Source: Rhodopseudomonas infernalis
GTDB lineage: Bacteria; Pseudomonadota; Alphaproteobacteria; Rhizobiales; Xanthobacteraceae
Assembly (NCBI RefSeq): GCF_022271405.1
Contig: NZ_JAJNAL010000031.1
Coordinates: 1 to 60,989, forward strand
Reading direction: 5' to 3'
DNA: 60,989 nucleotides
Notes under the pieces: generated by a model
What the model was told of the DNA's origin: nothing
What the model saw: only the letters and a program-made list of their open reading frames with translations
The model's database searches: none
Program-made: the position numbers and the translations under genes
In this document: positions 9,507 through 59,611 of the stretch, one piece after another
Position numbering within the stretch: the first letter of the stretch is position 1
Layout: each line of letters begins with the position of its first letter

Positions 9507-9874
9507 CACAGCACCTCCGGCGCCAGCGAAATGATTTTCATGTGGTTCTTCGCACGCAGTTCGCGCGGCACCGGCCCGAAAATGCGGGTGCCGACCGGCT
9601 CGGACTGATTGTTGATCAGCACGGCGGCGTTGCGATCGAAGCGGATGACGGAGCCGTCGGGGCGGCGGATGTCCTTGCGGACCCGGACCACCACGGCCTT
9701 CATGACGTCGCCCTTCTTCACCTTGCCGCGCGGAATCGCTTCCTTGATCGACACTACGATAACGTCGCCCACGGTGGCATAGCGGCGCTTGGAGCCCCCC
9801 AGCACCTTGATGCACATGACACGGCGTGCGCCGGAATTATCGGCCACGTCGAGGTTGGTCTGCATCTGGATCAT
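9506..9874 (-). CDS. rplN: 50S ribosomal protein L14
   Basis: L14, 122 residues. It begins [19 protein letters not shown] and contains [20 protein letters not shown], both highly conserved. It follows rpsQ by 61 bp and overlaps rplX by one base. Confidence 0.98.
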
Positions 9875-36830: not shown

Positions 36831-37443
36831 TCTATGCAGGTCATTCGATTAAGCGTCGGACGAAAACGAAGTTTTCGACGTCGGCACCTGCAGTCTTGGA
36901 CAGGACCAGGATCGTTCGGAGCCGCGCCGGCAAACCGGCAAAGCCCTTGCAATCCCTGCCCGCACTCCCCGAAACGATAGAGGTTCGGCCCTTCGAGCAA
37001 TCCAAACGAGGACAACTTGAAGGACTCATCTCCTATCGACACCGGTGATCGGAATGCGCGCACGAGCGCGCCAGCCACGGCCAGCACGCCCGGAAGGAAC
37101 TCTTTAACGAGTCTTTCTCCCCTTGCCAAGGCCGATTTGGGGAAAACGGCACCTTTTATGCAGGGGCCAGGTTCGGCCCGGGCAACGGCCCCTGAAATTC
37201 GCCGCCACTTCCGTGAAGCGAAGCATCGCTGCTGCCACTGGTATTACTACCTACACAAAGTTGCGTCACTTGCTACGCACAACCATTCATGGCCATCCTG
37301 GGGCACAGCTTCAACCGGCTGATTCGCGCCCGATTCCGGGCCGCGGGTCTCCCGACGAGGCTGCCGATCTCGATTTCGGGTCAGTTCCTGAACTTCGGCA
37401 CGCCTGTTTTCACGCGCCGCACGACAACTCCGGGGACACCTTC
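36831..37443. other. Intergenic region between rplJ leader and outer-membrane gene
   Basis: About 610 bp shared by minus-strand rplJ and a plus-strand outer-membrane gene. On the minus strand CATAAAAGG occurs at 37153-37161, the same -10-like string as upstream of secE, but without a matching -35. No gene is evident. Confidence 0.4.
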
Positions 37444-38346
37444 ATGAATCGCTTGATGGTCGCTTTGACACTCGTTGCGCCGACAATCGCCGTACTGCCC
37501 GCCCGCGCCGCCGATCTGCCGGCGTTGAAGGTGGTCGCCCCGCTGTACATGCCGGCCTCGCTGGTGCCTCGCACCGCGTGGTTCGCCGGCATCGGCGGCA
37601 GCGTCGCGTCGCAGAGCTATGAAAGCCAGAACATCTACGCCCAGGGCGTCTCCAACATCTACCTGGGCGGCACCCAGGTCGCATTCGGATCGGCAGGCGG
37701 CCCGACCACACCATCGCTCGACCCCCGCACCAGCTTCGCTCCCACTGCCCAGGTCGGCTTCTTCCAGCATGTCGGCGGCACCGACTGGCTGTTAGGCGGC
37801 AAGGTCACTTACAGCTATGTGAATGCGCACTCGACCGACAGCCGCGTGCGCGACCCGCAGGTCGGCTCGTTCACCAGCGCCAATTCCGACAGTTTCACCG
37901 GCAATGTGGTGATCGGCTCGTATCAGAGCGGCATCAGCCAGCAGATCAACTTCATTCCGTTCCTCGGCCACTCGTTCGAGCGCAGCATGGTCTATGCCGG
38001 CGTCGGCCCCTCGCTGTCGCAGGTCAAATCCAGCCTGAACAAAGTCATCGGCTTTGCTGCGATCAACGGCCAGCACGTCAACATCACCGGCCAGCTGAGC
38101 AACTTCTCCAGCACCCAATGGGTGCTGGGCGGCGCCGCGACCGTCGGCGGCACCTACTTCATCGACCGCGGCTGGTTCATCGACGTGAACTACACCTTCG
38201 GCATCACCAAGAACCAGACCACCAATTTCGCCGCGCCGTTCGCCAGCGCGACCGACGGCTACACCGACACCGGCATCCTCAGCGGCAACTGGTCCGGCCA
38301 CATCATCACCCAGGCGGTGGCGGTGTCGATCAACAAGGCGTTCTGA
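37444..38346 (+). CDS. Outer-membrane beta-barrel protein, unknown function
   Basis: 300 residues from the ATG at 37444. Signal peptide MNRLMVALTLVAPTIAVLPARA with cleavage before ADLPALKV. Strand-like alternation throughout (AQVGFFQHV, DWLLGGKVTYSYVNA, YFIDRGWFIDVNYTFGI) and a C-terminal Phe, the barrel-assembly signal. It resembles porin-like opacity proteins of rhizobia. The frame is open back to 37123 but only this start precedes a signal peptide. It is on the plus strand inside a minus-strand superoperon. Confidence 0.8.
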   Translation: MNRLMVALTLVAPTIAVLPARAADLPALKVVAPLYMPASLVPRTAWFAGIGGSVASQSYESQNIYAQGVSNIYLGGTQVAFGSAGGPTTPSLDPRTSFAPTAQVGFFQHVGGTDWLLGGKVTYSYVNAHSTDSRVRDPQVGSFTSANSDSFTGNVVIGSYQSGISQQINFIPFLGHSFERSMVYAGVGPSLSQVKSSLNKVIGFAAINGQHVNITGQLSNFSSTQWVLGGAATVGGTYFIDRGWFIDVNYTFGITKNQTTNFAAPFASATDGYTDTGILSGNWSGHIITQAVAVSINKAF

Positions 38347-50825: not shown

Positions 50826-51668
50826 TCAGTCCTCGGACGTGAATCCCACCGGCACAGTCAGCGTCCGGGCAGCGCCTGGTGGCGGCGAAGGAAGCGGCGA
50901 GGCCCGCTGTACCAGCGCAACGGCCTCGCGATCGACCTCGGCAACGCCCGACGATCGTAGCAACGCGGCCGACAGAACGTGACCGCTGCCGTCGATCGAA
51001 AACCGCACATAGGCGATGGCACGAGTCCCCGCGGTGGCCGACACGGCGCGCTTGCGGCGCTTGAGATGGGCCATCAGCAGCGACCGCCAATCGGCGGGCG
51101 ATATCGACGAATCCCCCGAAGCCGTCTGCGCCGCAGCGATCCGCGTCGACCGTTTCGCCTGGATCTGCTCCTGCCGCATCGCGCGAGAAGCTGCGACCGC
51201 CTGTTGTCGGCGCTGCTGAGGTTTCTTCTCGGGTGTCCGGCTTTGCGTCGGCCTGGTTTCCGGCCTCGGTGGTCGGGGTGGAAGCGGCACCTCCGCCTTC
51301 TCGAGGATGGGCGTACTCTCGTCGATCTTCGGATCTTCGGTTGGCTCTGGCTTGTCCGGCTCCGACCGTTTCTCGACGGCCTGCTCCTGCGGCGTTTGCT
51401 GCTCCTGTTCCTGTTGGGGACGACTGTCGTCCGACGACGCCGCATCCGGCGTGATCTCGCTCTGCTCGGTCCGGATCGCTTCAGGCAGGGCCGCAAGGTC
51501 CACCATGATGGCGGCCGGCGAACTATCGGCCGCAACGACAGGATCGCTGCGCAGCAACCAGCCGATGGTCGCGGCATGAGCGCCGATCGTCACCAGCGCC
51601 GCGCCCGACCAGCCCAGCGCCTCGATCACTTTGGTCCGGCCGCGAACCGCGCCCTCGAAATCGGTCAT
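50826..51668 (-). CDS. tonB: TonB family protein of the haem uptake operon
   Basis: 280 residues. One N-terminal membrane helix (about 18-40), a long Pro/Glu/Arg-rich periplasmic spacer (about 85-165, including PLPPRPPRPETRP) and a C-terminal domain with YVRFSIDGSGHVLSAALLRS and VDREAVALVQRASPLPSPP. It transmits proton-motive energy from ExbBD to the receptor. The start overlaps the exbD stop codon by 4 bp. Last gene of the haem block. Confidence 0.92.
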   Translation of the reverse strand: MTDFEGAVRGRTKVIEALGWSGAALVTIGAHAATIGWLLRSDPVVAADSSPAAIMVDLAALPEAIRTEQSEITPDAASSDDSRPQQEQEQQTPQEQAVEKRSEPDKPEPTEDPKIDESTPILEKAEVPLPPRPPRPETRPTQSRTPEKKPQQRRQQAVAASRAMRQEQIQAKRSTRIAAAQTASGDSSISPADWRSLLMAHLKRRKRAVSATAGTRAIAYVRFSIDGSGHVLSAALLRSSGVAEVDREAVALVQRASPLPSPPPGAARTLTVPVGFTSED

Positions 51669-52141
51669 GGCGCGGCGGCGGCCGGCCGGGCCTCGGGCAA
51701 CGCGCCGGACGGTGAGATGGAGGATGCGGTTTCGAGACCGACCAGCGCGATCTTGAGATAGCCTGCGTCGCGTAGCAGATTCATCACTTCCATCAGGCTG
51801 CCGTAGTCGACGCTCTTGTCGGCGCGCACGAAGATCCGCGTCTGCTTGCCCTCATTGGCCGCATGGTAGATCACCTTCTCGAGATCCTCGCGCGAGACCG
51901 ACATCTCACCGACGCTCAACATGCCGTCGCGCTTCAACGTGAGATAGAGCGGCTTGTCGGGACGCGGTATCGGCTGTGCCGTCGACGCAGGCAGGTCGAC
52001 ATCCACGTCGACAGTGGCCAGCGGCACCGCCACCATGAAGATCATGAGGAGAACCAGCATGACGTCGATGAAAGGCGTGACGTTGATGTCGTGATTGTCC
52101 TCGAGTTCATCTCCGATGCGTTCGCGAATACTCCCTGCCAT
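51665..52141 (-). CDS. exbD: Biopolymer transport protein ExbD
   Basis: 158 residues from MAGSIRERIGDELEDNHDIN. One membrane helix (about 22-45) with the essential Asp26 in NVTPFIDVMLVLLMIF. The periplasmic domain ends in a Pro/Ala-rich tail of about 20 residues. The frame is open upstream into exbB, but this ATG is 10 bp after the exbB stop codon and gives the family start. Confidence 0.94.
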   Translation of the reverse strand: MAGSIRERIGDELEDNHDINVTPFIDVMLVLLMIFMVAVPLATVDVDVDLPASTAQPIPRPDKPLYLTLKRDGMLSVGEMSVSREDLEKVIYHAANEGKQTRIFVRADKSVDYGSLMEVMNLLRDAGYLKIALVGLETASSISPSGALPEARPAAAAP

Positions 52142-52151
52142 GACGTCACTC

Positions 52152-53114
52152 CTACTCTGCAGCCAAAACCGAAGCCGGCGACTTGCGCTCTCCCGGCACT
52201 CTGCGGAAATCCAGGTCCAGCCCCACAAGTCGTTCGACGCCCGCTGATGCGTCGGCGAGAACCTGCCGATAGCCGGTGATCGCGCGCGCGAAGATGTTGT
52301 AGATGACGACGGCGGGGATGGCGGCGACGAGGCCGAAAGCGGTCGCTAGCAGAGCCTCCGCGATGCCGGGTGCAACGACAGCGAGATTGGTGGTCTGACT
52401 CTGCGAAATCCCGATGAAGGAGTTCATGATGCCCCATACCGTGCCGAACAGGCCGACGAACGGAGAGATCGCCGCCACCGTCGCGAGCAGTCCCGTGCCG
52501 CGTGTGAGCCGGCGCCCGGCCTGAGCTTCGATGCGGAGCAGACGGGACACGACGCGCTCTTTCAAACCGCCGTCGCCGGCGTAGTCCACCGCCGGCAGCG
52601 ATCGACGCATTTCCTCGCCGGCGGACCGCACCATGAAGGCGGCCGGCCCGCCGCGGCTGCCCAGATGGTCTGCGGCAGCAGACAGGCTGTCTGCGGACGC
52701 GATGATCCTGAACGTCCGCCGCGCCCTCCCACGCGCGCAGGCGACCTCGACTGTCTTGGCGAGACAAACCGTCCAGGTGAGTACCGAAGCGAGCACCAGA
52801 CCGATCATCACGGCCTTCACCACCCGATCCGCGGACATGAACATGCCCCAGACGGACAGGTCATGCGGCAGGTCGGACCTGCGATCCGGCCTCGCGGGCG
52901 CGGGTGAAGCAGCAGCCGGGCTCTCCGCCGACACGGCTTCTCCTGACGATGCCTGCGGGCTCGCCATCTCGCCATTCGGCGGGATGCCGTCCGGGGAAGC
53001 CGAGCGTTCGAGCGAGGTCGATGGCTGCTGCGCCAGTCCCTGCGACGGGCCAAGCACCAGCGCGCCGATCAGGAACGACATCACAAGCCTTGTCGTCGAA
53101 ACTACAGCCCGCAT
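52152..53114 (-). CDS. exbB: Biopolymer transport protein ExbB
   Basis: 320 residues, long form. A signal-like N-terminus and a periplasmic Ser/Pro/Ala-rich stretch (about 30-85) precede the three helices; MotA/TolQ signature is in LLATVAAISPFVGLFGTVWG and GIAEALLATAFGLVAAIPAV. It forms the proton-conducting motor with ExbD. It follows the haem oxygenase gene by 91 bp. Confidence 0.94.
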   Translation of the reverse strand: MRAVVSTTRLVMSFLIGALVLGPSQGLAQQPSTSLERSASPDGIPPNGEMASPQASSGEAVSAESPAAASPAPARPDRRSDLPHDLSVWGMFMSADRVVKAVMIGLVLASVLTWTVCLAKTVEVACARGRARRTFRIIASADSLSAAADHLGSRGGPAAFMVRSAGEEMRRSLPAVDYAGDGGLKERVVSRLLRIEAQAGRRLTRGTGLLATVAAISPFVGLFGTVWGIMNSFIGISQSQTTNLAVVAPGIAEALLATAFGLVAAIPAVVIYNIFARAITGYRQVLADASAGVERLVGLDLDFRRVPGERKSPASVLAAE

Positions 53115-53205: not shown

Positions 53206-53847
53206 CTAGCCGTCGACCTCTTGAGCCGAGGCGGCAGCAGGCAGAGCGAGGAGCTCGCTCACCAGCGCCTGCACGCGCATGAACGCAGCACGGGCGCCGG
53301 CAATCGCCCCCTCCTCTTGCAGATGTGAGAGCGGGACGGCATCGAACGCCGCCACGAACCCCCTCCAGTGCAGCGCGCGTCCGTCGGGCGCCGCGGCCAG
53401 GTGCCGGGCGCCGAACGTCTCCGACAGACCGAGCTTGGCGGCCTGCTTGAGCAGAAACGATGCGCCGAGATTCGAACCTTCGGCGACGTAGAGCCAGCCG
53501 AGCGCGCTCGGAACGTCGATCTGATCATCCATCGTGGACGTCGGCGTCGCTCCCGATGGGTCCGTAGCTATCCCGAGGTCGCACAGGTCCTGCTCGACCA
53601 ATCCGAGCCGACGGCGCTGCGCCAAGTCCGGCAACAACGCTCCAAGGGCGGCGCTGCGGTACAATGGATCGACGTCGCGATGGAAGCGATGCTGAACCTC
53701 GAGAAACAACGCGTAGCGCTCGCGGTTCGCAAACGGCCGGCGCGCCATGATCGCCGTGTCGAGCCGCTCGTGCGTCGCGTGCGTCGCCATCTTCAGCCTT
53801 CTGGCCCGGCTGGCCTCCGGGACCGAGCCATCACTCATCACAACCAT
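53206..53847 (-). CDS. Haem oxygenase (biliverdin-producing, bacterial)
   Basis: 213 residues from the ATG at 53847, 8 bases after GGAG; an open frame reaches 53922. Proximal-helix motif ATHATHERLDTAI with probable iron ligand His26, and distal-helix LGWLYVAEGSNLGASFLLKQ with the Gly-rich kink. It would open imported haem to biliverdin, iron and CO in the cytoplasm. It lies between the receptor and exbB, consistent with haem-iron use. The biliverdin could also serve bacteriophytochromes, common in this group, but that is inference. Confidence 0.88.
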   Translation of the reverse strand: MVVMSDGSVPEASRARRLKMATHATHERLDTAIMARRPFANRERYALFLEVQHRFHRDVDPLYRSAALGALLPDLAQRRRLGLVEQDLCDLGIATDPSGATPTSTMDDQIDVPSALGWLYVAEGSNLGASFLLKQAAKLGLSETFGARHLAAAPDGRALHWRGFVAAFDAVPLSHLQEEGAIAGARAAFMRVQALVSELLALPAAASAQEVDG

Positions 53848-54017
53848 CCAAGAAGCTCCAATCTGCAGAACGCCTATCCGCTCTTCGCCATCTCGTTCGC
53901 GGCCCACCTTCATCGGCAGCACCGTCTCGTTGTTGAACTCCCGTCAGCCTCGGCACAGCGTGAGCTGCGGTGGACGGGGCGGAAAGCTGTCGCCCCGATC
54001 TTGTCCGTCGCGCGCGG

Positions 54018-57000
54018 TCAGAACCTGTAGTTGACCCCGACCCGAACCATCGGGATGTCGACGCTGCTGGTGAGCCTGCGCCCGTTGCTGGTCGAATAGG
54101 TCGCCGGCGTCACGAAATTGCCCGGCAGCACGCCCGCCCTCGCGTCGGCGAAAGTGAAATCCTCACCGGAAAATCGAGCCAGCAGATACTCGGCTTTGAT
54201 CGACCAAGCACCGCCCACCGCGAATTCGCCGCCGCCACCGATCACGTAGCCCACGCGCGTGCGGGAGCTATCTTCGGTGAAAGTCGCCACGGTCGTCGTC
54301 GGCCACGCGAAGTTTCCGGTGTTGACGGCTCGGTACTGAGTCCGGGACTCGTCCTGCTGCATGAAGGCGACGCCGCCGCTGGCATAGAGCATCAACCGGT
54401 CGTTGACGGCGTAGCCGAGCCGTCCGCGCACGGTGGACAGCCATTTGATCTCGCTCTGCTGCACCGCCTCGAACTGCCGCATCCTGGACAGATTGTTCGC
54501 ACAGTTGCAGGCAACGCCTTCGGTGGCGAAGGTCACCTGGGACGCGCCGATCTCGCTCTTGGCGATGTCGGCCTCGATGCCGGCGACGATCCGGCTCGCG
54601 AACTGATAGTCGTAGCCGGCATGTAGGCCGAAGGAGAGCGCGCCGACCTGCTGATTGGGCGCTTCGTTCACCGCATGACTGTCCGGCGATCCGTCCAACG
54701 CGGTCGTGGTCCCGCTGAATTTCGCGGAGTTGTAAGCCGCGTTGACGCCGGCATGGAATCCGCTCCAGTTCGCAACCGTTGCGCTCGGAGCAAACAGCCG
54801 GCCCAGTGACACCGGCGATACGGTCTCGTTTCCTCCGAACTTTCCGGTCATCCCGAGGCGAACCGTGCGTCCGGGGCTCGGCTGTTGCACCAAGCTCAGC
54901 GGGTCGACGTAGTACTGATCCGTCAGATTCTCCACGGTGGCTCGCAAGCTGATGTCCTTGGTCAACCTGTATTCGGCGAACACATCGACCAGCCAATACG
55001 GCTGCCAGATGATCGGAGCGATGATGGCGGACGCACCATACTGCACCGCGCCGTATCCGATCGAGCGTGGCCCGATATAGCTCGCGCGACCGCCGACCGT
55101 CAGGTCATCGTCGAGCAGTTTCTGAGACAGCGTGATGTTCGCCGAATATTTCGGCGGCACCTGATTGGCCGAATAATCGCCCGACAGAGTCGAGTTGGCG
55201 CAGGTGCCCGCGGTCGGACAGTATTCAACGTTGAGATAGTAGTTTGCGGCGACCTCTGCGGTGAAGCCGCCGTTCTGATAGCGCCCCGACCACTCAATTC
55301 CTTCGAAACGCGCGCGATCGATGTTGACCACCTGAAGGGCAGTGTATGTGTAGCCGTAGGTCGGATCCACGAACGACTTGCTCATCCGGGCGACGTAATT
55401 CGACACATCCCAATTGAAATATCCGAACTTCATCATCGCCTTGTCGGCAGCCGCGAAAACCCCTTCTCTGAACAGATTCACGCCGGCTTCCCAATTGTTG
55501 GAGCGTTCGGGAAGCAGACCGGCATTCGGGACCAGGCTGTAGCCGGCGACCGATTCGAACAGCGTCGGCATGCGCAGGGCGCTGGAGTAATTAGTGTAGA
55601 ACTGCACGTCCTTGATCGGCTCGACCACGATTCCGGCGGACGGACTGTATCCGCCATTCTCGCGCGACGGCTCCGAATTCACCTGGGTTGCGTTGGTGAT
55701 CGTACTGCGATCCTGAGACCAGTAATGCGAGTATCGGAGACCACCGTTCAACGTCAGCCATTCGACCGGCTTGTAGGAGAGTTTCCCGAAACCGGCGACT
55801 TCCTGCCGTTCGCCGTCACGAGACGGGATGCCGGCGTTGAGCTGGTTCGTAAACGGCGTCGGCCTGGTCGCCTCCTGGAGGTAAGAAGCACCGTAATCCA
55901 CGTCGAGCGATCCGAACCGATCCAGCTCGACGTGAGACTTGTTGCTGACGTCGCCCCCTGCCATCGTACTCTGATTGCCCGGAAGATAACCATACGGGAG
56001 ACCGAAATCTTCAGGCTTGACGTTGGTCGCGAAGCTCGTCCGGGGCGGTGTCAGCAACGTCAGGCTCGTCATCCACATATTGGCTTTGAGGTCGACGAGA
56101 CCGTTGTCTTCAGGTTTCCAGCGATAGCGCACGGTCCCGGTATCGACCTTGGTCACGTCCTCCTGGAGCTGCTGGGTGGCCTGGCTTTGAACGCTGGAAA
56201 ACAGCGAGGCGATGACGTCCCCGGCCCTGCTGCGATAGCCGTTGTAGCCGATCTGCAGACTCTGGCCGTCATCGGATCGCACGGTCCCCTTGGCGAGATA
56301 GGATTCGGTCTCGAGCTGCGTGTTGAGAACCTGCTCGCCGGCGCGATAGCTGGTCAGACCGGTGTTTTGGTAGACATGCGCATAGGAGATCGGGCTCGGC
56401 GGATAGTAACAGAAGCCACTCGAATAGCAGAGCGGCTGCGGTCCGGTATCGAGCACGCCCGCGCCCGGCCCGTTCTTTCCGGCAAAATAGTTACCCTGCT
56501 TCCGATAAGCATAGCCCCACAGCAGATCGTAGTTCGCCTCCTTGATCGCCGCGACGGTGCTGAACGAACCGCTGGTCGGATTGAGCAATCCTGGGCGATC
56601 GAGGCCGGAAGCCTGCGCCGTCGGCACCGGATAGGGCTGAGGATCGCTGACATAGGGCCGCGGCCAGCTATAACCGCCGAGATCGCCCGGCCGCGGGTTG
56701 GCCGTATTGGTGCCGAACCCGCTTCTGACCAGCACGCCCCACTTCTCGCCGGCCTTGACGACGTCGTCGGCACCGAGCGTTCGCATCGCCACCGTGCCGG
56801 CGATGCCGCGGGACGAGGCGTCCGCACCCTTGGTGATATCGACACCCGCGAGAAGATCCGGATCGACATAGGTCCGGTTCGAGATGCCCTGATAGCCCTG
56901 ATAAACTGTCAGCCCGTTCTCGGCGCCATCCACCGTCACGGCGACACGGCCCATGCCCTGCATGCCCCGGATGTTGACGTCGATCGAACCGCCGCCGTTC

Positions 57001-57578
57001 CTGGCTTCGCCCGACATCACGCCCGGCGTGCCGCGGAAGATGTCTGCGGGACTGCTGCCACGAAACCGCTCGATGCTCTCCTGCGAAATACGACTGACCG
57101 CCGCCGGCGTGCGATACGGCGCCTCGGTCGGATTTCCACGACCACCCGAGATGTCGATCGTATCCAGCAAGAGCGAGCCGTCGGTCGCCGGCATCTGGTT
57201 CATGCTCGCGCGTACCGGACCGACGATGGTGACTGTGTTGGCGCTCTTGAACCGATATGAGAGCCCGGATCCGGCCAGCAACCGGTCGAGTGCCGCAGAT
57301 GGCGTCAAGGCGCCACTCACCGCCGGCGCGGACTTGCCCGCTACCAACGCCTGATCAATGAATATCTGAAGCCGCGCCTGGCGCGAGAAGGCAACCAGCG
57401 CACGCGCAAGCGGCTGGGCTGGGATGTCGAGCTCACGCGACTTGGCGTCGGCGCTGCCGGATTGTGGAGATTGCGCGCGCGCCAGTTCGACCGTCGCCGC
57501 GGTGGACAAAAACGTCGCCGCCATGACCAGAGCGACAAACCCAGCGTGCCTCGATGCGCATCTCGTATCGTCGTCCAT
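54018..57578 (-). CDS. TonB-dependent haem/haemoprotein receptor fused to an Omp25-like barrel
   Basis: 1186 residues. Signal peptide (about 1-36); STN signalling domain (about 48-125, DIPAQPLARALVAFSRQARL); plug (about 145-280, with FRGTPGVMSGEARNGGGSID); 22-strand-type barrel closing near residue 914 with SPGRTVRLGMTGKF. A second unit follows from about 935 to the end: ANWSGFHAGVNAAYN, LSFGLHAGYDYQF, WLSTVRGRLGYAV, SIKAEYLLARF and a terminal MVRVGVNYRF, which is a complete 8-stranded Omp25/opacity-type barrel. The plug and barrel fit the haemoglobin/haem receptor branch. The STN domain fits the adjacent sigma/FecR pair. A fused second barrel is unusual. Confidence 0.9.
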   Translation of the reverse strand: MDDDTRCASRHAGFVALVMAATFLSTAATVELARAQSPQSGSADAKSRELDIPAQPLARALVAFSRQARLQIFIDQALVAGKSAPAVSGALTPSAALDRLLAGSGLSYRFKSANTVTIVGPVRASMNQMPATDGSLLLDTIDISGGRGNPTEAPYRTPAAVSRISQESIERFRGSSPADIFRGTPGVMSGEARNGGGSIDVNIRGMQGMGRVAVTVDGAENGLTVYQGYQGISNRTYVDPDLLAGVDITKGADASSRGIAGTVAMRTLGADDVVKAGEKWGVLVRSGFGTNTANPRPGDLGGYSWPRPYVSDPQPYPVPTAQASGLDRPGLLNPTSGSFSTVAAIKEANYDLLWGYAYRKQGNYFAGKNGPGAGVLDTGPQPLCYSSGFCYYPPSPISYAHVYQNTGLTSYRAGEQVLNTQLETESYLAKGTVRSDDGQSLQIGYNGYRSRAGDVIASLFSSVQSQATQQLQEDVTKVDTGTVRYRWKPEDNGLVDLKANMWMTSLTLLTPPRTSFATNVKPEDFGLPYGYLPGNQSTMAGGDVSNKSHVELDRFGSLDVDYGASYLQEATRPTPFTNQLNAGIPSRDGERQEVAGFGKLSYKPVEWLTLNGGLRYSHYWSQDRSTITNATQVNSEPSRENGGYSPSAGIVVEPIKDVQFYTNYSSALRMPTLFESVAGYSLVPNAGLLPERSNNWEAGVNLFREGVFAAADKAMMKFGYFNWDVSNYVARMSKSFVDPTYGYTYTALQVVNIDRARFEGIEWSGRYQNGGFTAEVAANYYLNVEYCPTAGTCANSTLSGDYSANQVPPKYSANITLSQKLLDDDLTVGGRASYIGPRSIGYGAVQYGASAIIAPIIWQPYWLVDVFAEYRLTKDISLRATVENLTDQYYVDPLSLVQQPSPGRTVRLGMTGKFGGNETVSPVSLGRLFAPSATVANWSGFHAGVNAAYNSAKFSGTTTALDGSPDSHAVNEAPNQQVGALSFGLHAGYDYQFASRIVAGIEADIAKSEIGASQVTFATEGVACNCANNLSRMRQFEAVQQSEIKWLSTVRGRLGYAVNDRLMLYASGGVAFMQQDESRTQYRAVNTGNFAWPTTTVATFTEDSSRTRVGYVIGGGGEFAVGGAWSIKAEYLLARFSGEDFTFADARAGVLPGNFVTPATYSTSNGRRLTSSVDIPMVRVGVNYRF

Positions 57579-57674: not shown

Positions 57675-58607
57675 TTAGCGATCGCTGGTTGGAATCATTA
57701 AAGTCAGCCAGCTCGTCGCCCGATAGATCCGCAACGACAGCGACTGGGCGATGATATCCAGCGCTGCGTCGGTATCATGCGTGTCGAATACGGCGGTGAC
57801 GTGCCGCTGACCGAGCGCGCCTCCAAGTAGGAGGACCGAGCCGCGACGATAGCGGCCCAGTTCGGCGAGCACCTCACTCAGCGGAACGTCGCGGAAGACG
57901 AGCTGGTTCTGACGCCACGCCTGCACGGCGTCGAGATCGGCCTCGGTCACGGCGGAGAGGCCGCCTGCGCCGTAGCGCACCTCGTGACCTGCCGTGACCT
58001 CCACGGGCCGACCGGGCGGCGTGCCGACCTGAACCCTACTCTGGGCAACGGCCACCCTGACGTCGCCCGCGAACTTGACGTCGAACGCGGTGCCGAGGAC
58101 CTTCACTTCTCCACGTCCAGCCGTGACGATGAAGGGCCGCGTCGAATCCTTCGCCACCGTGAAGAACGCCTCGCCCGTCAGCAGCTTGATCCGCCGTTCG
58201 GCCGGCTTGAACGACACGTCGAGTGCCGTCGCGGTCCCCAATTCGATCTGGGAGCCGTCTTCGAGCGTGATCGTCTTGCGCTCGCCGATGCTCGTCCGGT
58301 GGTCCGCGAACAGCCCGACCGGTATCATCTGCCAGCCGAGGCCGGCGACCACCAGCAGGACCACGGCGGCTGTCACGGCGCGCTTCAGCGTATGCCGGTG
58401 TCGCCGCCGCTGGCGCGGCCGGCCGACGACATCGAGCCCGCTCCACATCCGCTCGAGCGAATGCCATGACGCTTCGTGGGATGGATCGGACCGCAACCAT
58501 GTGGCGAACGCGGCCCGATCCGCCTCCGTCGCCTCGTCGTCGCGCAGCAAGACGAACCATTGGATCGCCTGATCATCGACGGACGGTGGTGCGTCGATCC
58601 TGTCCAT
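57675..58607 (-). CDS. FecR-type anti-sigma/sensor protein
   Basis: 310 residues. N-terminal cytoplasmic DUF4880-like domain (about 12-65, WFVLLRDDEATEADRAAFAT, WHSLERMW), one membrane helix (about 76-93), periplasmic FecR domain (about 105-200, LEDGSQIELGTATALDVSF, VLGTAFDVK) and a C-terminal STN-like part. It relays receptor occupancy through the membrane to the sigma factor. It lies 129 bp after the sigma gene and 96 bp before the receptor. Confidence 0.92.
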   Translation of the reverse strand: MDRIDAPPSVDDQAIQWFVLLRDDEATEADRAAFATWLRSDPSHEASWHSLERMWSGLDVVGRPRQRRRHRHTLKRAVTAAVVLLVVAGLGWQMIPVGLFADHRTSIGERKTITLEDGSQIELGTATALDVSFKPAERRIKLLTGEAFFTVAKDSTRPFIVTAGRGEVKVLGTAFDVKFAGDVRVAVAQSRVQVGTPPGRPVEVTAGHEVRYGAGGLSAVTEADLDAVQAWRQNQLVFRDVPLSEVLAELGRYRRGSVLLLGGALGQRHVTAVFDTHDTDAALDIIAQSLSLRIYRATSWLTLMIPTSDR

Positions 58608-58736: not shown

Positions 58737-59261
58737 TCATCGATCCAGTTCGCCAGTGGCGTTCGGGTCCGAGAAGCTCGCCTTGAGGCTGAACATCGCC
58801 CTGACCATGTGGGCCATCACGGTGTTCTTGGAGATGCCCAGGCGGCCGGCGATCTCGGCATAGCTCATGCCTTCGAACTTGTGCAGGATCAGCACTTCGC
58901 GCGGCCGCGGCGGCAAGCCTGCGAGCGCGGCATGCAGCGCCTGGAATTCCTCCCGGGAGATCAGAACGGCGTCGGGCAACGGCGCCGGATCGGCCAGCGC
59001 CTCGTCCAGCTCGACGGCGTTGCCGAGGACGCTGCGCTGCTGCCGGCGGACATCGTCGATCGCCAGATTGCCTGTGGTGCGGAACAGATAGCTGCGAAGA
59101 TCGCGAATCTCGTCGCGCGGTGTGCGCAGCAAGCGAAGGAAGGCCTCCTGCACGATGTCGGCGGCGGCGCTCGCCGAGACCCCGCGCGCCATCAGAAATC
59201 GCTTCAGGCGGCCGTGCTCGTCGGCATAGAGCGTCGCCAGATTATCGGTCAAATCACTCAT
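58737..59261 (-). CDS. ECF sigma factor, FecI type
   Basis: 174 residues from the ATG at 59261; a TTG-started frame to 59345 lacks support. Region 2: ADIVQEAFLRLLRTPRDEI and YLFRTTGNLAIDDVRRQQR. Region 4: LPPRPREVLILHKFEGMSYA and EIAGRLGISKNTVMAHMVRA. It should direct transcription of the receptor in response to the STN-FecR signal. First gene of the haem block. Confidence 0.92.
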   Translation of the reverse strand: MSDLTDNLATLYADEHGRLKRFLMARGVSASAAADIVQEAFLRLLRTPRDEIRDLRSYLFRTTGNLAIDDVRRQQRSVLGNAVELDEALADPAPLPDAVLISREEFQALHAALAGLPPRPREVLILHKFEGMSYAEIAGRLGISKNTVMAHMVRAMFSLKASFSDPNATGELDR

Positions 59262-59611
59262 GGAAGGCCACACCACAGCAGCGCTCGAAAGCCGCGGAAC
59301 CTGCCGATTTCGACTACCAGTCTCCGGATTTTCTTTCAAATGCAATGATTTGGATTGGCTCTAGGGATGTCCGCAAGCTGCGCGGCATGCACTCGCCCCG
59401 GGGGCCATCTGCAAAGCCCGATGGACTTGGCCCATCGGAAACCGGGGGCAAGCCTACGCTGCCGGTGTCATCGCAGCAGGACCGGTGCCCTCAACCAGCA
59501 GAAGACTGGGCCGCAGCGAAACAGCGCTTTGGGCGAAGCGAGCCCGCAAATTGTCCCACTGACCTTAAGCCAGTGTCCCACCAGTTGAAATGACTGAATA
59601 ATTTCTGTCGC
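59262..59611. other. Spacer between the sigma factor gene and tRNA-Trp
   Basis: 350 bp without a gene. An A/T-rich patch (59330-59358) is a plausible promoter/iron-box site for the sigma gene but has no clean Fur or Irr motif. Near the tRNA, TGTCCCAC is repeated at 59553-59560 and 59575-59582, 22 bp apart, like repeats at IS21-family ends. Confidence 0.4.

Follow-up and report, generated by a model that had tools for sequence, protein, structure and literature searches.

A TonB-dependent receptor joined in one chain to a predicted second, Omp25-like barrel in Rhodopseudomonas infernalis and related bacteria

Background

Can one polypeptide carry two complete outer-membrane barrels, and what would a small second barrel do for an importer? 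The question is raised by a receptor gene in a 60,989-nucleotide stretch of Rhodopseudomonas infernalis DNA (contig NZ_JAJNAL010000031.1, assembly GCF_022271405.1; hereafter the window), whose product had been interpreted from the letters alone (the sequence-only reading) as a TonB-dependent haem receptor followed by a complete Omp25- or opacity-like barrel. Here, we confirm that the one-chain, two-barrel architecture is real and a property of a receptor subfamily rather than of one genome, and we describe selection on the second barrel (barrel 2), the conservation of its predicted outer face and the genes around it.

To our knowledge, outer-membrane proteins whose structures are known almost always carry a single barrel in each chain. 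Multi-barrel outer-membrane proteins were reportedly treated by Solan et al. in 2021. In two papers that cite this work, such proteins figure as an established kind, and GfcD (YjbH/GfcD) is presented with 12- and 13-strand barrels connected by a periplasmic domain (PMC8592465, PMC11494523). As far as our models go, the window receptor has in common with them more than one complete barrel per chain, the predicted combination here being instead a TonB-dependent receptor and an 8-strand barrel. A search of titles and abstract openings returned nothing on a fusion of these two kinds; the pairing, recurring as a conserved but intermittently present variant of the receptor, and the conservation seen on the outer face of barrel 2 appear to be new. 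Natural versions with and without barrel 2, found side by side in four loci, allow tests of how the barrel assembly machinery (BAM) handles a chain of two barrels in which the end-strand signal of the first is internal. They also allow tests of what an importer gains from a small non-pore barrel, for which apical conservation points to specific residues.

One reading frame and two predicted barrels

The gene is a single open frame of 1186 codons, 54018-57578 on the minus strand, running without a break from an ATG at 57578 to a stop at 54018-54020; the stop or frameshift near 54833 that could have produced a false fusion is not present. The domain search proposed with the sequence-only reading found STN, Plug, TonB_dep_Rec (residues 435-885) and OMP_b-brl (residues 928-1149), all above their cut-offs, with OMP_b-brl (PF13505) scoring 43.4 bits against a gathering cut-off of 28.7. 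As had been proposed, the receptor barrel closes at residue 914: in 32 of 33 close single-barrel homologues the chain ends at the equivalent of F914, and in the other, in locus L055, it extends three residues further. The extension beyond F914 comprises 272 residues (915-1186; domain layout in Table 1). A false joining of two genes through an overlooked stop or frameshift is hardly credible, as the frame is intact and fused homologues of full length, with 26-92% identity in barrel 2 among the 31 compared, occur across many genera and assemblies, some of them on complete plasmids.

The whole chain was modelled with AlphaFold2 on a 64-row alignment (A2), giving a mean pLDDT (predicted local distance difference test) of 81 and a predicted TM-score (pTM) of 0.70. 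The model has 22 strands of at least eight residues over positions 280-916 (five shorter strands are excluded from the count), pLDDT below 50 at 920-933, and then eight strands over 940-1185. Modelled alone, the final 266 residues form the same eight strands with a pLDDT of 91.4 and a pTM of 0.84. The prediction is thus of two separate barrels; one continuous barrel of about 30 strands is close to inconceivable, given the 22 strands, low-confidence linker and eight strands, the confident model of barrel 2 alone, and the single forms that stop at 914. Pfam, the two structure models, the homologues and codon statistics all agree with the earlier proposal of a complete second barrel, and the family assignments, a HasR-type haem receptor and an Omp25/opacity-like barrel, have held up. 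According to the models the two barrels close separately within one chain, for which two BAM folding events are plausible.

Foldseek ranked HasR (3ddr/3csl) first for the whole chain. For barrel 2 the top-ranked match was OmpA, and the 50 matches listed included Ail, OmpX and NspA; FadL and OmpT also match, at lower target-normalised TM-scores. Compared by sequence with the PDB, barrel 2 gave just three chance-like matches to a Kelch-like protein (best E 0.046). HasR of Serratia marcescens (PDB 3csl, 3ddr, 5c58) is the best match both by sequence and by fold, with an STN domain, a plug and a 22-strand barrel in common, whereas the HasR entries (865 residues) lack a second barrel. Barrel 2 shares eight strands, a terminal Phe and conserved residues of the periplasmic half with Omp25/OmpA-like barrels (PF13505; OmpA, OmpX, Ail and NspA folds); it differs from them in lying C-terminal to a receptor in one chain and in its conserved extracellular half. 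Its likeness to opacity- and Ail-type adhesins appears, from the models, to be one of fold only.

Gly, Pro and Ser are abundant in the linker, and its low model confidence and variable length (19-34 residues) would suit a polyprotein that is cut there into two separate outer-membrane proteins. We regard this as very unlikely: no cleavage motif was evident in 12 linkers (no cleavage-site program was used), and three RefSeq records give a single coding sequence, though later cutting would be compatible with that.

Distribution and evolution of the fused form

Within the taxonomic family to which R. infernalis belongs, 12 of 198 genomes have a match at E <=1e-100 (three candidates scored per genome), at 20 places, of which 18 are full-length fusions (window included), one is cut by a contig end (L021) and one is partial (L028). 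The 18 form alignment A1, from which the other two are omitted; STN, Plug, receptor barrel and OMP_b-brl are present in 18/18, and Opacity (PF02462) matched two. Among plasmids, 20 records match and eight extend to the end of barrel 2, some of the plasmids being complete. The second barrel is easily overlooked, because the names in three RefSeq plasmid records, each with a single coding sequence, are just 'TonB-dependent receptor'.

For a broader comparison we used 79 homologous loci, the best 79 of 310 relatives ranked against a fused-receptor alignment, so that fused forms are over-represented. Together with the window, and with L049 excluded, they provided 88 receptors, 52 with barrel 2 and 36 without in this biased set. 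Three remote single receptors were excluded from the closing-residue counts and from the comparison of receptor positions. Alignment A2 holds 50 of the 52 fused and 14 of the 33 close single rows, and a third alignment (A3) 32 of the 52 fused rows. The fused rows are labelled with 11 families, including Nitrobacteraceae, Xanthobacteraceae, Brucellaceae, Hyphomicrobiaceae, Rhizobiaceae, Caulobacteraceae and Sphingosinicellaceae. When the order was sampled evenly, at least 22 of 397 genomes matched at E 1e-150 and the model end was reached in 3 of 30 places; a census of the class gave matches at E 1e-100 in at least 5 of 385 genomes, with the end reached in one of five places, the window itself (two candidates were scored per genome, making both counts lower bounds). 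Since so few places are fused to the end, single-barrel forms are commoner at large.

The synteny check suggested with the sequence-only reading did not find the two barrels as separate genes: the stored flanks of the 79 loci hold no separate barrel 2 gene among open frames of at least 70 residues, save in L074, where an ordinary Omp25 gene lies at a distance of 3.7 kb from the receptor. Likewise, a scan of the 1500 bases that follow each of 33 single-barrel receptors gave no convincing decayed remnant of barrel 2 (one match, E 0.47). The single-barrel receptor in L055, from Hyphomicrobium, has a C-terminus (9700-9724) resembling the start of the fused linker, perhaps the trace of a lost barrel, and no barrel 2 trace was found within the following 1500 bases. 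Outside Alphaproteobacteria, single-barrel homologues occur in Klebsiella sp. (L076) and on Pseudoalteromonas plasmid NZ_CP098525.1, perhaps through horizontal transfer. The Brucella cytisi homologue in L049 diverges from the family at its 3' end and was left out of the trees.

On the best receptor tree, obtained by a quick search that gave long-branch warnings, the fused/single label switches 10 times, with at least six switches forced by starred branches; nine changes remain without the three remote rows. The barrel 2 tree has two changes for 52 fused against 25 stand-alone or other multi-barrel rows, the exception being a stand-alone row whose branch is long; the 25 Omp25-type rows were drawn from 23 proteins in nine genomes and are a small stand-alone sample. 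In an approximately unbiased (AU) test a single clade of fused barrels was not rejected (p 0.476), which is no proof of a clade, and the fused barrels formed one clade in 2% of 200 bootstrap trees. By sequence, then, the fused copies of barrel 2 seem to fall near one clade, apart from stand-alone Omp25s, and the simplest reading would be that the module arose once or a few times and was afterwards repeatedly lost or exchanged. Loci L045, L050, L051 and L077 hold tandem pairs of a fused and a single receptor, each receptor having its own sigma/FecR pair in the last three, and such tandem pairs are a possible route of exchange. Five receptor positions separate fused from single forms; all are swaps between similar residues and were not used.

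Selection and the outer face of barrel 2

Four pairs were compared, three from Rhodopseudomonas and one from Afipia. In these, the ratio of non-synonymous to synonymous substitution rates (dN/dS) of barrel 2 is 0.088, 0.093, 0.094 and 0.097, next to 0.066, 0.072, 0.087 and 0.075 for the plug and barrel 1. A value near 0.09 means purifying selection, under which barrel 2 is maintained.

We defined signature positions, within residues 938-1186, as residues present in at least 80% of the fused barrels and in no more than 25% of the 25 other rows. There are 14, every one of them in the extracellular half, which makes up 148 of the 249 positions; none of the 29 positions conserved in both the fused and the other Omp25-type rows is in that half. 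Because any set of orthologs may show such a contrast against a mixed set, a control was made of 30 stand-alone Omp25-type proteins, kin of one protein of the same genome (matches in 175 of 297 genomes; one locus each from 30). Conserved positions are apical in 19/53 cases in the fused barrels (n=52, mean identity 0.40) versus 1/33 in the control (n=30, mean identity 0.38; Fisher p 4e-4). At a threshold of 0.7 the shares are 29/71 and 6/45 (p 0.002), at 0.9 they are 13/39 and 1/28 (p 0.005), and restricting the control to its 21 rows of greater divergence (mean identity 0.37) gives 2/40 at 0.8. Two of 40 conserved control columns fall in gaps of the window sequence, both ahead of the barrel. 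Since the extracellular half is conserved here and variable in the stand-alone control, barrel 2 is probably a module of the cell surface that makes a defined contact, and a functional outer face is supported indirectly. The signature residues predicted to face the lumen include R1079, Q1081, E1102 and R1167, while E972 and E1020 lie in loops; in the model, these residues may form a ligand site, may brace fixed loops in contact with the receptor, or may do both.

The alternation of fused and single forms on the receptor tree and the linker-like end of the L055 receptor would be expected if barrel 2 were a tolerated passenger of an old fusion, freely lost. We find this improbable in view of the low dN/dS in all four pairs and of an apical side that stays conserved at such a low mean identity in rows from 11 labelled families.

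A further possibility is that barrel 2 is mainly a device for assembly or stability, providing a C-terminal BAM signal and an insertion tether and having no ligand of its own. An aromatic residue occupies position 914 in 32 of 33 single forms and in 35 of 52 fused ones (17 have Leu or Ile; Fisher p 0.0008), and the new C-terminus, for which a terminal Phe had been claimed from the window alone, is Phe in 52/52 fused receptors, a pattern that fits BAM reading chiefly the terminal signal. We nevertheless rate such a device as unlikely, since the contrast at 914 is non-significant with relatedness counted (five independent pairs on starred branches, median p 0.5) and conserved extracellular positions are not predicted by it.

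Gene neighbourhood

Judged from order and strand, the genes for the sigma factor, FecR, receptor, haem oxygenase, ExbB, ExbD and TonB would form one operon (Table 1). In the stored flanks of the 79 homologous loci, a sigma factor was found in 76, FecR in 78, TonB in 33, ExbB in 16 and ExbD in 15. Because the sigma/FecR pair is present in nearly all of them, the receptor is of the cell-surface signalling type. HasR, too, works with sigma/anti-sigma genes.

Table 1. Features of the two-barrel receptor gene and its neighbours in the window.
Feature	Position	Strand	Basis or remark
ECF (extracytoplasmic function) sigma factor	58737..59345	-	upstream
FecR-type anti-sigma factor	57675..58607	-	upstream
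Whole two-barrel receptor gene	54018..57578	-	1186 aa + stop
Putative N-terminal signal peptide region, residues 1-36	57471..57578	-	sequence; low-confidence model helix 12-24; HasR alignment begins at residue 36
STN signalling domain, residues 70-119	57222..57371	-	Pfam PF07660, E 3e-12
TonB-dependent receptor plug, residues 156-258	56805..57113	-	Pfam PF07715, E 1.7e-15
Barrel 1, predicted 22-strand TonB-dependent receptor barrel, residues 280-914, closes at F914	54837..56741	-	Pfam, NCBIfam, model, Foldseek; single-barrel homologues stop at F914
Linker, 23 residues, 915-937	54768..54836	-	low model confidence; 19-34 residues across 52 fused receptors
Barrel 2, predicted 8-strand OMP_b-brl (Omp25/OmpA-like), residues 938-1186	54021..54767	-	Pfam, models, Foldseek
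Haem oxygenase	53206..53922	-	downstream; PF01126, E 1e-18
ExbB	52152..53114	-	downstream
ExbD	51665..52228	-	downstream; listed open reading frame (ORF) start overlaps exbB, true start probably further in
TonB	50826..51668	-	downstream

The haemophore docking suggested by the sequence-only reading was not supported: HasA (PF06438) is absent from the match list of the own genome and was found in one of 49 homologue-bearing genomes (those accessible through 50 of the 79 loci) and in none of 14 control genomes, so that the sensitivity of the search is shown by one match alone and a diverged haemophore could escape it. That lone HasA-like match (L109, G204:C4) lies in an Azorhizobium genome with four barrel 2 matches in long frames.

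A scan for promoters and terminators gave about as many sites as in shuffled sequence, and Rfam found one tRNA in the window.

Proposed working

From these data we infer how transport, signalling, cellular topology and the role of barrel 2 might fit together. The overall picture that we consider fairly probable is a signalling HasR-type haem receptor with a linked 8-strand surface barrel that contacts a ligand. Barrel 1 would import haem or iron by means of the ExbB-ExbD-TonB system encoded nearby, haem oxygenase would open haem inside the cell, and the STN domain would relay occupancy via FecR to the ECF sigma factor, inducing the operon. Barrel 2 would sit beside barrel 1 in the membrane, its two ends both periplasmic, and would act as a fixed module at the surface rather than as a pore; 8-strand barrels are too narrow for one. 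Its conserved upper lumen and loops (E972, E1020, R1079, Q1081, Y1082, E1102, F1143, R1167 and others) would contact the ligand, most likely a haem source or the receptor's own loops.

Several observations weigh against this picture. Haem oxygenase is present in the stored flanks of just 27 of the 79 loci, and the haem link, good at the window locus, is not universal among the homologous ones. The NCBIfam haem/haemoglobin receptor model TIGR01785 is passed narrowly (322 bits, cut-off 316.85). In the HasR alignment, H189 corresponds to Y229 and H603 falls in a gap; neither of these histidines, which we take to be the haem ligands of HasR, is kept. Haem binding, if any, must for this reason rely on other residues, perhaps Tyr as far as the alignment can suggest, and Y229 is almost invariant across the 64 rows of A2. 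Many relatives lack barrel 2, so it is not required for the basic receptor job, and 27 of the 30 places in the even order sample have no complete barrel 2. The apical and basal assignments come from a predicted model, and positions within one family are not independent. Of nine apical signature residues in strands, seven face the lumen by strand alternation (the seventh strand being a near tie), and they could merely brace the barrel.

Within the picture of a signalling receptor with a linked surface barrel, we tentatively propose, as something possible rather than probable, that barrel 2 is a covalent surface co-receptor, whose conserved outer face holds a haem source or gates the receptor and so replaces the separate haemophore or lipoprotein partners of other haem systems, capture and import being combined in a single chain.

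Other barrel proteins in the same genome

The R. infernalis genome may contain several double-barrel proteins. A 605-residue ORF on contig C6 of this genome (G000; L115, 946-2760) has two OMP_b-brl stretches, and a 707-residue ORF on C16 (L113, 1243-3363) combines OMP_b-brl with an OprB porin. Three ORFs of 469-612 residues, on C13 (L111, 1267-3102), C37 (L112, 1384-3084) and C14 (L118, 1393-2799), have one OMP_b-brl and much extra chain. Within the window itself, a 407-residue ORF at 37123-38346 on the plus strand, with no Pfam match at E 0.01, resembles past an internal Met a signal-bearing outer-membrane barrel.

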